From Bacteroidia bacterium (lineage in GTDB: Bacteria; Bacteroidota; Bacteroidia; Flavobacteriales; Flavobacteriaceae): 43,315 nt of DNA. How positions within the stretch are numbered: the first letter of the stretch is position 1; every line of letters begins with the position of its first letter. The position numbers and the translations under genes were made by a program. The notes beneath the pieces were generated by a model that searched no databases, was not told where the DNA came from, and saw only the letters and a list, made by a program, of their open reading frames with translations. Below are positions 37,324-43,315 of this stretch, one piece after another. The stretch spans positions 1 through 43,315 of the forward strand of contig JAUIGC010000008.1 of NCBI GenBank assembly GCA_030429835.1, given 5' to 3'.

Positions 37324-38139
37324 ATGGACAGATTGCCAAAAATTGCCTTACCGGCAATATTTATCTTTATAGTGTTAGTTATCTTAATATCCAAATCGGC
37401 CGTGACCATAGGTTCGGGAGAAGCGGGAGTACTCTACAAAACTTTTGGTAACGGGGTCGTAACGGACCAACCGCCTATGGGTGAAGGATTTCACCTAGTT
37501 GCTCCATGGAACAAGGTTTTTGTATACGAAGTACGTCAACAAGAGGTATTCGAAAAAATGAATGTGCTCTCTAGCAATGGTTTGGATATCAAGCTGGATG
37601 CGTCCGCTTGGTTTCAGCCCAAATACGACGACTTGGGCAAATTACATCAGGAAAAGGGAGAGGATTATGTACAACGCGTTTTACTACCTACCATAAGATC
37701 TGCTGCAAGATCGGTTGTTGGTCGTTATACCCCAGAACAACTTTACTCTAGTAAAAGGGATGCCATTCAAATGGAAATTTTTGAAGAAACCAAAAAAATC
37801 GTAAATGATGAGTACATTCAATTAAATGAAATCTTAGTGCGTGATGTAACCCTGCCTCCTACCATTAAGGACGCCATAGAACGTAAATTAAAGCAGGAAC
37901 AAGAGTCCTTGGAATATGAGTTTCGACTGATTACGGCGGAAAAGGAAGCTGAAAAAGTTAGGATTGAAGCACAGGGTAAGGCAGATGCAAATAGAATATT
38001 GAGTGCATCGTTGAACGATCAAATATTAAGGGATAAAGGTATAGATGCTACGCTTCGTATGTCAGAATCCCCAAATGCCAAGGTAATCGTAATAGGTGGG
38101 GGAGAATCCGGTTTGCCTCTGATTCTAGGAAATAACTAA
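37324..38139 (+). CDS. SPFH/prohibitin-family membrane protein
   Basis: A 271-residue protein with an N-terminal membrane helix (about 8-25, IALPAIFIFIVLVILI). An SPFH domain follows (about 28-200, with GEAGVLYKTFGNG, PMGEGFHLVAPWNKVFVYEVR and VVGRYTPEQLYSSKRD). Next comes a charged helix (KLKQEQESLEYEFRLITAEKEAEKVRIEA) and a short C-terminal tail. The order is that of bacterial prohibitin-like and HflC-like proteins, which assemble into ring- or cage-like membrane scaffolds and modulate membrane proteases such as FtsH. Its partner by position is the vWA-like membrane protein 11 bp upstream. Confidence 0.93.
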   Translation: MDRLPKIALPAIFIFIVLVILISKSAVTIGSGEAGVLYKTFGNGVVTDQPPMGEGFHLVAPWNKVFVYEVRQQEVFEKMNVLSSNGLDIKLDASAWFQPKYDDLGKLHQEKGEDYVQRVLLPTIRSAARSVVGRYTPEQLYSSKRDAIQMEIFEETKKIVNDEYIQLNEILVRDVTLPPTIKDAIERKLKQEQESLEYEFRLITAEKEAEKVRIEAQGKADANRILSASLNDQILRDKGIDATLRMSESPNAKVIVIGGGESGLPLILGNN

Positions 38140-38194
38140 TTTGTATAAATTGTTATTTTTCAAAAATATTCTTTTAAACAAGAAAATTAAATTT

Positions 38195-38202
38195 TACTTT
38201 TA
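38195..38202 (+). promoter_or_regulatory. probable -7 promoter box of the his operon leader
   Basis: TACTTTTA matches TAnnTTTG except for the last base. It ends 7 nt before the leader-peptide ATG at 38210, so the transcript would start at or just before that ATG. No -33 TTG is evident. Confidence 0.45.
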
Positions 38203-38209
38203 CGTCGTA

Positions 38210-38266
38210 ATGAGAAAAAACAATAATACACATCATCATTTTTATACTTGCTCTCAAGCGAGGTAA
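38210..38266 (+). CDS. his operon leader peptide (MRKNNNTHHHFYTCSQAR)
   Basis: An 18-codon frame with stop TAA lies 106 nt before hisG. It contains three consecutive His codons (CAT CAT CAT at 38231-38239), the hallmark of a histidine attenuator leader. It is far too short to be found by length and is recognised by its His run and by its position between a promoter box and a terminator. Its last five codons, from TCT to AGG, overlap the antiterminator strand. Ribosome position on this peptide would therefore decide which RNA hairpin forms. Confidence 0.88.
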   Translation: MRKNNNTHHHFYTCSQAR

Positions 38267-38326
38267 AAATGTATTGTAGTATTACAAACATATTTTAAAA
38301 CCCGTTTGAGCAATCAAACGGGTTTT
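38247..38326 (+). promoter_or_regulatory. his operon transcription attenuator
   Basis: Four RNA segments can be read directly. Segment 1 (38247-38252, CTTGCT) pairs with 38257-38262 (AGCGAG), giving a protector hairpin. Segment 2 (38253-38263, CTCAAGCGAGG) can instead pair with 38301-38310 (CCCGTTTGAG), forming 10 pairs with one bulged A and one wobble. Segment 3 (38297-38309) and segment 4 (38314-38326) form the terminator. A ribosome stalled at the His codons would cover segment 1 and free segment 2, opening the operon when charged tRNA-His is scarce. A ribosome that reaches the stop codon would cover segment 2 and allow termination. Confidence 0.82.
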
Positions 38327-38333
38327 GTTTTTG
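38297..38333 (+). terminator. attenuator terminator before hisG
   Basis: Perfect 13-bp stem AAAACCCGTTTGA/TCAAACGGGTTTT with tetraloop GCAA, then GTTTTTGG. It lies between the leader peptide and hisG, 39 nt before the hisG ATG, and so controls entry into the operon. Confidence 0.9.
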
Positions 38334-38372
38334 GCTCTGATAGTATTTGCCAACTAAAATTAAAAATCAATA

Positions 38373-39230
38373 ATGACAAAGATTAGGATTGCTATTCAAA
38401 AATCGGGAAGACTCAATGAAGACTCCCTTCAGATTCTAAAGGACTGCGGTATTTCCATTGACAATGGAAAAGATCAGCTAAAAGCCTCTAGCCGAAACTT
38501 CCCCATGGAGGTGTTTTACCTAAGAAACGGGGACATTCCCCAGTATTTAAGGGACGGTGTGGTTGATGTTGCCATCATTGGTGAAAATGTATTGATAGAA
38601 AAGGGAGCCGACATTTCCATTGCGGAAAAACTTGGTTTTTCAAAATGCAAGGTGTCCTTGGCGGTACCTAAGGCCGTCAAGTACAAATCCGTTCAGGATT
38701 TTGAAGGAAAACGTATTGCTACTTCGTACCCCAATACAGTTACCAACTATTTAAAGGAAAAAGGGGTTAATGCAGATTTACACATTATTAATGGTTCTGT
38801 TGAGATTGCCCCTAATATTGGTTTGGCAGATGCTATTTGCGATATTGTTTCCAGTGGCAGCACCTTGTTCAAGAACAATTTAAAGGAAGTTGAAGTGATG
38901 TTGACCAGTGAGGCAGTATTGGCCGTTTCCCCAAAAATAACGGAGGAACGTTCGGCTTTACTTAAAAAATTACAGTTTAGGATACAATCCGTCTTACGGG
39001 CGAGGAAATCAAAATACGTACTCTTAAATGCCCCTAATGAGAAATTAGAAGAAATACTGAAGTTATTGCCGGGAATGCGCAGTCCAACGGTATTGCCCCT
39101 TGCAGAAGAAGGCTGGAGCTCGGTGCATACGGTAATTGACAAGGATACCTTTTGGGAGGTAATCGATGAATTGAAGAAGGTTGGTGCTGAAGGTATTTTG
39201 GTTTGTCCTATTGAGAAAATGGTTTTATAA
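38373..39230 (+). CDS. hisG: ATP phosphoribosyltransferase, long form
   Basis: A 285-residue enzyme that joins ATP and PRPP in the first step of histidine synthesis. The start is the ATG at 38373 (MTKIRIAIQKSGRL). GENVLIEKGADI and the PRPP loop DIVSSGSTLFKNNL are present. About 75 C-terminal residues (LLPGMRSPTVLPLAEEGW to GILVCPIEKM) form the regulatory domain that binds histidine. This is therefore the long, hexameric, feedback-inhibited form that does not need HisZ. Control of the operon is double: enzyme feedback plus the attenuator upstream. Confidence 0.97.
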   Translation: MTKIRIAIQKSGRLNEDSLQILKDCGISIDNGKDQLKASSRNFPMEVFYLRNGDIPQYLRDGVVDVAIIGENVLIEKGADISIAEKLGFSKCKVSLAVPKAVKYKSVQDFEGKRIATSYPNTVTNYLKEKGVNADLHIINGSVEIAPNIGLADAICDIVSSGSTLFKNNLKEVEVMLTSEAVLAVSPKITEERSALLKKLQFRIQSVLRARKSKYVLLNAPNEKLEEILKLLPGMRSPTVLPLAEEGWSSVHTVIDKDTFWEVIDELKKVGAEGILVCPIEKMVL

Positions 39231-39310: not shown

Positions 39311-40624
39311 ATGAACAAGATTTATAACCCTAGTAGAGAATCGTGGTCCACTATACTTAAACGTCCAACACAGACCGTGTCCGACATTGAGGATATTGTG
39401 GATACTGTTTTTACCGAAGTAAAAAAAGGAGGGGATTCCATTTTGAAAATGTATACGGAGAAGTTTGACGGCTTTTCTTTGGAAACCATTAGGGTGACCA
39501 AAGAGGAAGTAAATCAGGCGAGCCTGCATGTTTCGCAAGAATTGAAAAAAGCCATTCAAATGGCCAAAAGCAATATCGAAGAATTCCATAAAGCTCAAAA
39601 AACGGAAAGAGTTTTCGTAACTACTGCACCTGGGGTAGATTGTTGGCAAGAAAAACGACCTATTCAAAAGGTGGGTCTATACATCCCTGGAGGTACTGCA
39701 CCTTTGTTTTCTACAATTCTCATGTTGGCCATCCCGGCCAAATTGGCCGGATGCAAGGAAATTGTTCTATGCACGCCACCAAACAAAGAAGGCAAAGTGA
39801 ATCCAGCTATTTTATATACGGCGGCACTCTGTGGGGTTAAGAAAATTTTTAAAGTAGGGGGCATCCAAGCCATTGCGGGAATGACTTTTGGAACGGAGTC
39901 GGTACCAAAAGTGTATAAGATTTTTGGTCCGGGCAACCAATATGTAACGGTTGCCAAGCAAATAGCGACCAAATATGGGGTGGCTATTGATATGCCAGCA
40001 GGTCCTAGCGAACTTTTGGTTTTTGCGGATGATTCCGCAAATCCGGCTTTTGTAGCTTCTGATTTGTTGAGCCAGGCCGAACACGGTGTGGATAGCCAGG
40101 TTATTTTAGTCTCAACCTCAAAAGACCTATTGGATAAAGTGGAAGTTGAAGTAGAAATTCAATTGAAGGATTTGCCAAGGAAGGAAATTGCCGCTAGGGT
40201 TATAGAAAATAGCAAACTCTTCTATGTAAATGATAAAAAATCGGCTGTTGATTTGATCAATGAATACGGACCCGAACATTATATTATTTGTGCTGAAGGT
40301 GAGGACTTTTTTATTGAAAATGTGGAGAACGCCGGGTCGGTATTTATTGGTAATTACACTCCGGAAAGTGCTGGGGACTATGCCTCTGGAACCAACCATA
40401 CATTACCCACTAACGGGTACGCAAAACAATATAGCGGAGTTAATTTGGATAGCTTTATGAAAAGTATGACGTTTCAGAAAATAACCCCAAAAGGCATTCA
40501 AAACATTGGCAAAGCGATAGAATTAATGGCGGAAGCCGAAGGGTTGCAGGCACATAAAAATGCGGTAACCTTAAGATTGAATGAAATAAATAAAGTCATT
40601 TCGAGCACAGTCGATAAATCCTAA
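39311..40624 (+). CDS. hisD: histidinol dehydrogenase
   Basis: A 437-residue zinc enzyme that oxidises L-histidinol to histidine in two NAD-dependent steps, the last of the pathway. Characteristic segments are YIPGGTAPLFSTILMLAIPA, FGPGNQYVTVAKQ, GPSELLVFADDSANP, the base pair Glu-His in EYGPEHYIICAE, and GTNHTLPTNGYAK. The length is normal. It follows hisG by 80 bp and precedes hisC by one base, consistent with one operon. Confidence 0.98.
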   Translation: MNKIYNPSRESWSTILKRPTQTVSDIEDIVDTVFTEVKKGGDSILKMYTEKFDGFSLETIRVTKEEVNQASLHVSQELKKAIQMAKSNIEEFHKAQKTERVFVTTAPGVDCWQEKRPIQKVGLYIPGGTAPLFSTILMLAIPAKLAGCKEIVLCTPPNKEGKVNPAILYTAALCGVKKIFKVGGIQAIAGMTFGTESVPKVYKIFGPGNQYVTVAKQIATKYGVAIDMPAGPSELLVFADDSANPAFVASDLLSQAEHGVDSQVILVSTSKDLLDKVEVEVEIQLKDLPRKEIAARVIENSKLFYVNDKKSAVDLINEYGPEHYIICAEGEDFFIENVENAGSVFIGNYTPESAGDYASGTNHTLPTNGYAKQYSGVNLDSFMKSMTFQKITPKGIQNIGKAIELMAEAEGLQAHKNAVTLRLNEINKVISSTVDKS

Positions 40625-40625
40625 T

Positions 40626-41672
40626 ATGAAAATGTTCGATTTAAATAGTTTGATTCGTCAAAACGTAAAAGGTCTAAAGCCCTATTCCTCTGCTCGGGAC
40701 GAATATGTGTCGGATGGTTCGGAAATGATTTTTTTGGACGCCAACGAAAACCCCTTTCAGAACGGTGTCAATCGATATCCTGACCCCCAACAAAGAAGTT
40801 TAAAGTCCGTCTTGGCCCAACAGAAAGGTGTTCGGCAGGAAAATATACTCTTGGGTAACGGAAGTGATGAAGTGTTAGATTTGTTGTTTCGTGCCTTCTG
40901 TGAACCAAAAGTGGACAATATCATTACCTTACCGCCCACATATGGAATGTATAAGGTTTTGGCGGATATTAATGTGGTTGAAAACAGGGAAGTATTGTTA
41001 ATGGATGATTTTCAGCCGGATGTAGATTCCATTTTGAAAAACGTGGATTCACATACCAAATTGGTATTTCTTTGCTCTCCCAACAACCCCACAGGAAATA
41101 GCCTTCAGGTTTCCAAAATTGAAAATTTGTTGTCATCTTTCAATGGTCTGGTAGTTATTGATGAAGCTTATATTGATTTTTCTTCCGAGGAAAGTTGGGT
41201 TTCCAAATTATCCGAACACCCAAATTTGGTAGTTACGCAAACGCTATCCAAGGCTTATGGAATGGCGGGAATTCGCTTGGGAATTTGTATTGCTTCAGAA
41301 GAAATAATATCGGTATTGAATAAAATTAAACCGCCGTACAACGTAAATGAACTTACCCAGCAACGGGCTATGGAAAGGGTGTTGAATCGGGAGGAAATTA
41401 ATCAAGAAGTAGAAAACATCCTTAAAGAAAGAACGGTATTGGAACAAACGTTGAAAACCATTCAATTTGTTGAAAAAGTATATCCAACCGATGCCAATTT
41501 TATTCTTGCTAGAGTGGATGATGCGTCGCTCAGATATGGACAATTGTTGGAGAAAGGGATTGTCATTAGAAATAGAACTACCCAGCCCCTGTGTGAAAAC
41601 ACATTGAGATTTACAGTTGGGACACATAAGGAAAATGAATTTTTGATAAAGGCCTTAAAAGAATTATCATGA
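40626..41672 (+). CDS. hisC: histidinol-phosphate aminotransferase
   Basis: A 348-residue fold-type I PLP enzyme that converts imidazole-acetol phosphate and glutamate to histidinol phosphate. [11 protein letters not shown] is the N-terminal HisC signature. SPNNPTGN and VIDEAYIDF bind the cofactor, and the Schiff-base lysine is Lys209 in [10 protein letters not shown]. The C-terminal Arg lies in [12 protein letters not shown]. It starts immediately after the hisD stop and its TGA overlaps the ATG of hisB in the sequence ATGA, indicating translational coupling. Confidence 0.97.
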
Positions 41673-42850
41673 AAATAGAAAATGCAAAAAATAGTTCCCC
41701 CATTGGGGGCGGAGGGGGCCGAAAAGTCCTATTTATAGATAGGGACGGCACCATCATTAAAGAAACTGCGGACGAGCAGATTGATGCTTTTGAAAAAATG
41801 ATTTTCTATCCAAAGGCATTTACTTTTTTAGGTAAAATCGCCAAGGAACTGGATTATGAACTTGTCATGATTACCAATCAAGATGGTTTGGGAACAGACT
41901 CTTTCCCGGAAGATACCTTTTGGCCTGTTCACAATTTCATTTTAAAATCTTTCGAAAACGAAGGTGTTGTTTTTGATAAGGTCTTTTTGGATAGAACCTT
42001 TCCACATGAGAATGCAGATACCAGAAAACCCGGTACGGGACTCCTTACGGAATATTTCTCCAACGAATATGACCTTGAAAATTCCTTTGTTATTGGCGAC
42101 CGACTAACGGACATTGAATTGGCAAAGAATTTGGGTGCAAAAGGTATTTTTATCAATGACCAAACGAATTTGGGAACCAGTGAGATTACGGTAAAACGGG
42201 AAGCATTGGATGACATCATCGCGTTAGAAAGCAACGACTGGGAAAAAATCTATGAGTTTTTAAAACTGAAGGATAGAACGGCGACAACCCATAGAAAAAC
42301 CAACGAAACCGATATCCTTATTGAATTGAATTTAGATGGAACGGGAAAAAGCGATATCAAAACAGGGTTAGCGTTTTTCGACCATATGCTGGACCAATTG
42401 GCGCGTCACGGACAAATGGACCTAAAAATAAAGGTGGACGGCGATTTGGAAGTAGACGAACATCACACGATTGAGGATACAGGAATTGCTTTAGGTGAAG
42501 TTTTTTATAATGCTTTAGGAAACAAATTAGGTATCGAGCGCTATGGATTTTGTTTACCCATGGACGACTGTTTGGCGCAAGTAGCTATCGACTTTGGCGG
42601 AAGAAACTGGCTGGTTTGGGACGCGGATTTTAAACGCGAAAAAATCGGGGACATGCCTACGGAGATGTTCCATCATTTCTTTAAGTCCTTTTCAGACAGT
42701 GCAAAGGCAAACCTAAACATCAAGGCTGAAGGTACCAATGAACACCACAAAATAGAGGCTATTTTCAAGGCCTTTGCAAAGAGTATAAAAATGGCGGTAA
42801 AGCGGGACGTTGAAAAAATGGTCCTACCATCTACGAAGGGCGTGTTATGA
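41669..42850 (+). CDS. hisB: bifunctional histidinol-phosphatase / imidazoleglycerol-phosphate dehydratase
   Basis: A 393-residue fusion. The N-terminal HAD phosphatase has Asp24 and Asp26 (FIDRDGT), then MITNQDGLG and [12 protein letters not shown]; it removes phosphate from histidinol phosphate. The C-terminal dehydratase (about 205-393) has the manganese-binding [14 protein letters not shown] and [15 protein letters not shown]. It starts in ATGA overlap with hisC and ends in ATGA overlap with hisH. The first 17 residues (ending SSPIGGGGG) are an unusual extension before the normal start of the HAD fold, encoded by a G/C-rich repeat. This could be a repeat insertion tolerated at the N-terminus. 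Confidence 0.96.
41694..41720 (+). repeat. C5/G5 repeat inside the hisB N-terminus
   Basis: The stretch has CCCCC (41697-41701), ATT, GGGGG (41705-41709), CGGA and GGGGG (41714-41718). CCCCC can pair with either G run. It encodes residues 9-17 of HisB (SSPIGGGGG). Flavobacterial genomes carry short intergenic repeats of this general build, by my recollection; finding one in frame inside a core gene is unusual. Confidence 0.5.
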
Positions 42851-43315
42851 AAATAGTCATTATAAATTATGGAGCGGGAAACATCCAAAGTATCAAATTT
42901 GCGATAAAACGCTTAGGGTATGATGCTGTTTTAAGCAATGATGCCGACGAAATACGAAATGCTGACAAAGTTATCTTCCCAGGGGTAGGCGAGGCCAGCA
43001 GCGCTATGAAAAAACTGAGGGAAAGCCAATTGGACCAATTGATTCCCAATCTTACCCAACCGGTTTTGGGTATCTGTTTGGGAATGCAGTTGATGTGCAA
43101 CGGTTCAGAAGAGGGTAATACGAATGGCCTAGGTATTTTTGATGTTGATGTTGTACGATTTTCCAAAAAAGTTAAGGTGCCTCAGATAGGATGGAATCAG
43201 ATTTCAGACCTCAAATCACCATTGTTTAAAGGGGTAAAGGAAAATAGCCATATTTATTTGGTACACAGTTATTATGCTCCCGTTTGTAAACAGACCATAG
43301 CCACTTCTACATACG
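42847..43315 (+). CDS. hisH: imidazole glycerol phosphate synthase glutaminase subunit (partial)
   Basis: The first 156 codons are present and the window ends before the catalytic His-Glu pair. The protein begins [20 protein letters not shown]. It has the oxyanion segment FPGVGEAS and the nucleophile Cys77 in [10 protein letters not shown], as in class I glutaminase domains. HisH makes ammonia from glutamine and hands it to HisF for ring closure. The ATG overlaps the hisB stop (ATGA). The order hisG-D-C-B-H suggests that hisA, hisF and hisI continue beyond the window. Confidence 0.96.

Follow-up and report, generated by a model that had tools for sequence, protein, structure and literature searches.

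The his leader of enterobacteria carries seven histidine codons, and trpL of Sinorhizobium meliloti is a leaderless attenuator in which the control open reading frame (ORF) lies at the 5' end of the transcript. The enterobacterial his attenuator (RF00514) has, before the his operon, a leader peptide with His codons as well as terminator and antiterminator structures that are alternatives to each other (PMC9413887). In Firmicutes, his genes are controlled mainly by T-boxes and the HisR repressor, and attenuators were predicted in 17 genomes of three lineages (the Bacillus cereus group, Peptostreptococcaceae with Lutispora, and Erysipelotrichales), with three to five consecutive His codons and alternative hairpins before the his operons (PMC9413887). 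The original prediction for the locus described here named Proteobacteria and Firmicutes together as the groups in which histidine attenuation is best described, which overstates the case for Firmicutes.

For Bacteroidota, a 2021 study of Flavobacterium psychrophilum reported a conserved structured 5' element before hisG, which occurs in other Flavobacteriaceae genera and has no Rfam match, as well as clues of leader-peptide attenuation before amino-acid operons (PMC9723704). This element is very probably the same as the one analyzed here. The section of that paper naming hisG gives no peptide or helices for it, and the word "histidine" is absent from the main text (PMC9723704). Small ORFs reminiscent of leader peptides were described in Bacteroides thetaiotaomicron, in a text whose retrieved part does not contain "histidine" (PMC7366714). 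The retrieved part of PMC9413887 deals with His attenuation in Proteobacteria and some Firmicutes and does not contain "Bacteroid"; that of PMC2965389 has no match for Bacteroid or Flavobacter, that of PMC8305728, on the his genes of the superphylum of Bacteroidota, has none for "leader", and that of PMC4833913 names His leaders in gamma-proteobacteria and Bacillus. No Bacteroidota-wide His leader was found among the open-licence PMC titles and abstracts listed, and the subscription literature could contain one. The earlier statement that leaders are little catalogued in Bacteroidota stands insofar as the one before hisG is hardly described there, but this leader is not wholly unreported, given the F. 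psychrophilum element. The attenuator is known in kind and hinted at in print for one species; its detail and breadth are new.

Compared with the enterobacterial his leader, the element described here has three or four His codons, no Rfam match and, judging from a promoter motif, a probable near-leaderless start. Unlike trpL of S. meliloti, which responds to tryptophan in Proteobacteria, it concerns histidine and its 5' start is a prediction. In contrast to the three lineages of Firmicutes, leaders were found here in 37 of the 44 Bacteroidia family codes with hisG.

Organization of the hisG leader

The window, i.e., the whole stretch of 43,315 nucleotides that was analyzed, contains the consecutive genes hisG (38373 to 39230; long form with C-terminal domain, TIGR00070 and TIGR03455), hisD (39311 to 40624; TIGR00069), hisC (40626 to 41672; TIGR01141) and bifunctional hisB (41669 to 42850; NF003937), all on the forward strand and with matches above the cut-off. 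They are followed by an open frame (42847 to 43315, forward strand) that runs off the window end and that we take, from its sequence, to be probable hisH. The leader, also on the forward strand, is located between the start of hisG and an upstream gene (37324 to 38139) with weak HflC/HflK matches below the cut-off.

The leader ORF (38210 to 38266, MRKNNNTHHHFYTCSQAR followed by the stop codon) has 18 codons, with three tandem His codons, the putative control codons, at 38231 to 38239. The 18-residue His-His-His peptide proposed earlier is thus encoded before hisGDCB, where a short ORF with tandem codons for the amino acid made by the operon precedes the first gene. For the family comparison, 80 loci were fetched by hisG, which are the best 80 of at least 562 confirmed. 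In every one of them, a short ORF encoding His-His lies in the 260 nt upstream of hisG, so that the His run expected in Flavobacteriaceae was retained in 80/80 of these best matches. In the 81 leaders (window plus the best 80 of at least 562), histidine is encoded 263 times by CAT and 34 times by CAC; the use of both codons indicates that the residue, and not the letters, is conserved. Length differences in the alignment 5' of and through the His run are of three bases (e.g., a fourth His codon), and 3' of the run there is a one-base gap in L075, while L006, L009 and L022 end three codons early. L034 encodes Tyr-His-His and fails the three-His rule of the terminator, pairing and box tests, in which 80 of the 81 loci were counted. 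The family alignment used 46 of the 81 sequences, near-duplicates being removed by hand.

The region from 38210 to 38326 folds at -37.1 kcal/mol, against -13.9 ± 2.9 kcal/mol in 200 shuffles (z = -7.9). The minimum free energy structure and the family alignment contain one long protector hairpin, in which an outer helix (38224 to 38232 with 38275 to 38284) encloses an inner hairpin (38237 to 38271) formed by 38237 to 38245 with 38263 to 38271 and, at the apex, 38247 to 38252 with 38257 to 38262. Each His codon is located within one of the 5' arms of this hairpin or between two of them. In the 46 Flavobacteriaceae sequences, 78.8% of the alignment cells of the inner hairpin and 80.2% of those of the outer helix are paired, with 32 and 34 two-sided cells, respectively, compared with 12.5 and 14.3 in shuffles; when the partner was slid by 1 to 3 columns, pairing fell to 21 to 51%. 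Counted by pairs, two-sided change was not in excess of the shuffles (7 versus 6.2 for the inner and 6 versus 5.2 for the outer part). The six apical pairs hold in 40, 32, 30, 34, 46 and 15 of the 46 sequences and are the weakest part of the protector, the outer parts being better conserved. The six pairs originally taken for the whole protector therefore exist, but the hairpin is much longer and these pairs are its least conserved portion.

The stretch 3' of the leader stop codon (38267 to 38296, TGTATTGTAGT...) is well conserved in the window and its relatives. Part of it serves as the 3' arm of the outer protector helix.

The antiterminator pairs segment 2 (38253 to 38264), which covers the end of the leader ORF up to the first base of its stop codon, with segment 3 (38300 to 38310), which is shared with the 5' arm of the terminator. 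It has 11 bp, a bulged A at 38261 and one G-U pair, i.e., one pair more than the proposed pairing of 38253 to 38263 with 38301 to 38310, whose bulge and wobble are both present. The 13-bp intrinsic terminator with GCAA loop and T-rich end (38297 to 38332) was confirmed at the level of base pairs, by alignment and by a terminator scan: its arms are 38297 to 38309 and 38314 to 38326, and the 3' arm ends in four T followed by GTTTTTGG. This intrinsic terminator precedes the first structural gene, its end lying 46 nt 5' of hisG with the hisG start uncovered. A 500-nt scan of both strands found 3 terminator-like sites versus 0.2 in shuffles, and the leader terminator (14 pairs in the scan) was the only one on the forward strand.

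The motif CCGTTTGAG is present in the terminator arm (segment 3) in all 81 loci, i.e., the window and 80/80 relatives (best 80 of at least 562). In the 46 aligned sequences, 95.4% of the antiterminator cells are paired, against 22 to 54% after sliding by 1 to 3 columns. None of its 11 pairs showed a two-sided change within these Flavobacteriaceae, which is attributed to segment 3 being nearly invariant there. For the terminator, 94.5% of the cells are paired, and 5 two-sided cells were found versus 0.9 in shuffles, a count exceeded by the 8 two-sided cells obtained when the terminator was slid 1 to 3 columns toward the 3' end.

A probable -7 promoter box of the TAnnTTTG type (TACTTTTA, 38195 to 38202, forward strand, with A instead of G as the final base) and a probable -33 element (TTT, 38172 to 38174, forward strand) precede the leader; T occupies positions -38 to -36 of the leader ATG in 71, 71 and 69 of the 81 loci. 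A TAnnTTTN box ends 6 to 9 nt 5' of the leader ATG in 69 of the 80 family loci (best 80 of at least 562), while shuffles preserving only base composition had such a box within 16 nt of the ATG in a mean of 12.9 and a maximum of 19 of 80. The exact TAnnTTTG was found within 16 nt in 29 of these 80 loci (best 80 of at least 562) versus 1.8 in the same shuffles. In F. psychrophilum, boxes of this type occupy positions -12 to -5 (PMC9723704), and probable promoters of Flavobacterium johnsoniae have the box 4 to 5 nt from the start (PMC6847099). With this spacing, the position of the box predicts a transcript start near 38207 and a 5' untranslated region of about 3 nt, so that the leader ORF probably begins almost immediately after the transcript start. 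In the window, a start some 7 nt further upstream could result from an overlapping box (TAAATTTT). Starts so close to the coding sequence are uncommon: leaderless ones make up 5.5% in F. psychrophilum (PMC9723704), and 5' untranslated regions shorter than 10 nt make up about 3.7% in B. thetaiotaomicron (PMC7366714). In the class set for promoters (121 leaders, L083 to L210, with 21 later-fetched loci excluded), exact boxes lie within 60 nt in 93/121 and within 16 nt in 46/121, with gaps of 4 to 48 nt, indicating that a near-leaderless start is not universal.

Further leaders were sought in the same genome. Upstream of pheA (G000:C128, locus L252, about 1353 to 1424), a second likely attenuator consists of the leader MTKQYFWNGFYFYFFFKRGTGLL and, after it, a terminator, AGTCCCGT...ACGGGACT with a T run; ACGGGACT also occurs at the leader's end. 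A trpE-like match lies at its cut-off, homoserine dehydrogenase matches are present too, and no ilvD was found in this incomplete assembly.

Selection for the alternative pairing across the class

Among 296 genomes of the class, hisG was found in 131, including that of the window, and the other 130 were all examined. A leader was counted when, within 450 nt of hisG, a short ORF had three or more His among five codons. Such a His-rich leader precedes hisG in 114 of the 130 genomes (102/109 plus 12/21), compared, for the first 109, with 3 on the other strand and a mean of 2.4 in shuffles (2 to 3% in these controls), the highest shuffle giving 7. A few of the 114 are doubtful (e.g., L157, L166 and L186), which fits the 2 to 3 expected by chance. 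At least one leader occurs in each of 37 of the 44 family codes with hisG. Sixteen of the 130 genomes have no such leader. Six of these make up the whole of family code f43, in which the region preceding hisG looks coding by eye, and L110, counted as a miss, has a His-His ORF and a terminator-like hairpin by eye, below the threshold. The leader was found in 19/19 further loci of the same class. Outside the class, it was found in 23 of 40 loci, hand-chosen to cover families and with the hisG start assumed in 9 of the 17 misses, versus 2 on the other strand and 0.7 in shuffles. An intrinsic terminator follows 93 of the 114 class leaders versus 12 of 342 shuffled stretches, the remaining 21 having no recognizable terminator; the shuffles for class leaders, outside-class leaders and class terminators preserve base composition only.

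In 200 loci with leader and terminator (80 from the family, 107 from the class and 13 from outside), the terminator arm was paired with the sequence that separates the His codons from the terminator, and the result was compared with dinucleotide shuffles of that sequence. In 170 of the loci, the pairing beat at least 95 of 100 shuffles (77/80, 84/107 and 9/13, respectively), and 30 failed. The median end of the pairing site falls within the leader stop codon. The pairing sequences vary by family, being CTCAAGCG/CGTTTGAG here and GGTAGGC/GGCTTACC or ATAGGTG/CGCCTAT elsewhere. In 54 loci less than 66% alike, pairing with the own partner had a mean of -12.5 kcal/mol versus -9.3 kcal/mol with swapped partners (z = -9.8; 0 of 10,000 permutations as low), and the 50 of these loci that are not of the window's type gave a z of -8.6. 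The own partner beat every swap in 5 of the 54 loci and was in the best 10% in 23; the few outright wins are likely due to families sharing similar terminator arms. The pair 38257:38306, surveyed in 117 loci of the window's type by taking the best-pairing octamer, a choice that leans toward pairing, is A-U in 74, G-U in 31 and G-C in 12, which amounts to a two-sided change.

These comparisons show, at the level of sequence, selection across the class for pairing of segment 2 with segment 3 in an antiterminator that is exclusive with the terminator. The covariation that had been proposed as a check on this pairing is absent within Flavobacteriaceae, which taken alone would speak against the prediction, but across the class the pairing is kept with different sequences.

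Several lineages differ at the end of the leader. In family code f40 (L189-L191, L257, L259, L261, L263, L265-L267), 10/10 loci keep a His-rich leader, e.g., MEQYKLHHLHLHHHHFVVNR, and an intrinsic terminator was found in 0/10; several show a small hairpin over the leader's end by eye. Leaders ending in HHSS (L139, L146, L147, L153, L161, L164 and L165) have, by eye, a hairpin of the TTCCTC...GAGGAA type around the stop codon; no intrinsic terminator was found in six of the seven, and in L161 a T run is preceded only by a long, irregular hairpin. Outside the class, f84 (L222-L225, L230, L246-L248) has scattered His codons, often with Gly between them, and no terminator at the threshold of -8 kcal/mol. 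Some f84 leaders start directly 3' of a TAnnTTTG box by eye.

Proposed mechanism and alternative explanations

The leader is in all likelihood a ribosome-mediated transcription attenuator of the his operon, as judged from sequence comparison and folding models. We infer the following course of transcript start, leader translation, termination and response to histidine. RNA polymerase would start a few bases 5' of the leader ORF, followed by a ribosome. With plentiful charged His-tRNA, the ribosome would reach the stop codon and cover segment 2, so that segment 3 would pair with segment 4, the terminator would form and transcription would stop before hisG. When charged His-tRNA is scarce, the ribosome would stall at 38231 to 38239 and open the long protector hairpin; segment 2 would then pair with nascent segment 3, the terminator would be blocked and hisGDCB would be transcribed. 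If the leader is not translated, the protector would hold segment 2 and the terminator would form.

The folding model represents the ribosome as a deletion of all RNA 5' of its edge. Edges at 38243, 38246 and 38249 correspond to a ribosome at His 1, 2 and 3 and were set by the usual toeprint and footprint spacing of a stalled ribosome. With edges at 38243, 38246, 38249 or 38252, the mean pair probability of the antiterminator is 0.81 to 0.98 while the polymerase is at 38310 to 38318, and for the His 1 to 3 edges it is lost at 38322. With RNA removed up to 38276 (ribosome at the stop codon), no antiterminator is predicted and the terminator forms. Without a ribosome, the protector has probabilities of 0.55 to 0.98 and the antiterminator at most 0.35, reached briefly at 38313 to 38316 (0.27 to 0.35). 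In the model, the masked folds give a transient antiterminator at the stall edges and a terminator at the stop-codon edge. Once the RNA has its full length, the terminator prevails in all masked states (0.94 to 0.98), and the switch must therefore be kinetic, with timing deciding the outcome. The idea that the stalled ribosome masks segment 1 was correct only in part: a stall at His 1 or 2 leaves 38247 to 38252 uncovered, but in the model the outer helices are removed and the antiterminator beats the apical hairpin. Both the alignments and the model are consistent with a protector hairpin that a ribosome stalled at the control codons would open.

It is highly improbable that the terminator merely ends the upstream gene and that the His ORF is incidental. 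A homologue of the upstream gene lies in the flank of 71 of the 80 related loci (best 80 of at least 562) and could explain part of the conservation, but all nine loci without it (seven with 3 kb of flank, and L071 and L079 with only 500 to 730 nt) keep the leader and the terminator arm, and this explanation was rejected on that ground. It is also at odds with the leaders before hisG in 114/130 class genomes and with the promoter-like box between the upstream gene and the leader. Somewhat more room, though still very little, is left for a histidine-responsive leader that acts at translation or through Rho rather than through an intrinsic terminator. Such action would suit the 21 of 114 class leaders without an intrinsic terminator, including all 10 of f40 and six ending in HHSS; the window and its 80 relatives, however, carry a strong terminator with segment 2 as the partner of its 5' arm, and that of the window ends 46 nt before hisG, leaving the hisG start free.

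Almost no probability attaches to a T-box, a riboswitch or a protein-bound leader in place of a translated one. The very conserved leader sequence, with segment 3 invariant in 81 loci, would fit an element of this kind, but the His run is kept and the frame is maintained across it, a fourth His accounting for a 3-nt difference. In addition, no family of Rfam 15 reached its gathering score in the window, neither the his leader RF00514 nor the T-box model being matched, and the 18 weak matches with E up to 10 in 38100 to 38450 include no T-box and no his leader. The best of these, PyrR, L10 leader and PyrG leader, were rejected as being below their gathering scores. Compared with these alternatives, a functional His attenuator of the classical type is very probably what the locus encodes. 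The elements named in the original prediction are present and positioned as such a mechanism requires, and its interpretation was right in essence.

Significance of probable histidine attenuation in Bacteroidia

This analysis adds a fuller anatomy of the leader, supports the alternative pairing by comparison and shows that leaders occur in most sampled Bacteroidia family codes. A broader history can be offered tentatively, and as a whole it is rather doubtful: control of hisG by a His leader may be old in the phylum and kept in most sampled Bacteroidia families, the leader ORFs of the window's relatives may be read from a nearly leaderless 5' end and without Shine-Dalgarno signals, and at least two lineages (f40 and that of the HHSS leaders) may have swapped the terminator for another output, perhaps a hairpin at the stop codon.

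Amino-acid attenuation is best described in Proteobacteria; the attenuator would add to its range a phylum that has promoters of its own and lacks Shine-Dalgarno signals, and would imply close coupling of transcription and translation in Bacteroidota, at least on this leader. It may offer His-responsive switches for Bacteroidota genetics, and its sequence-divergent natural copies form a series for studying the evolution of attenuators.
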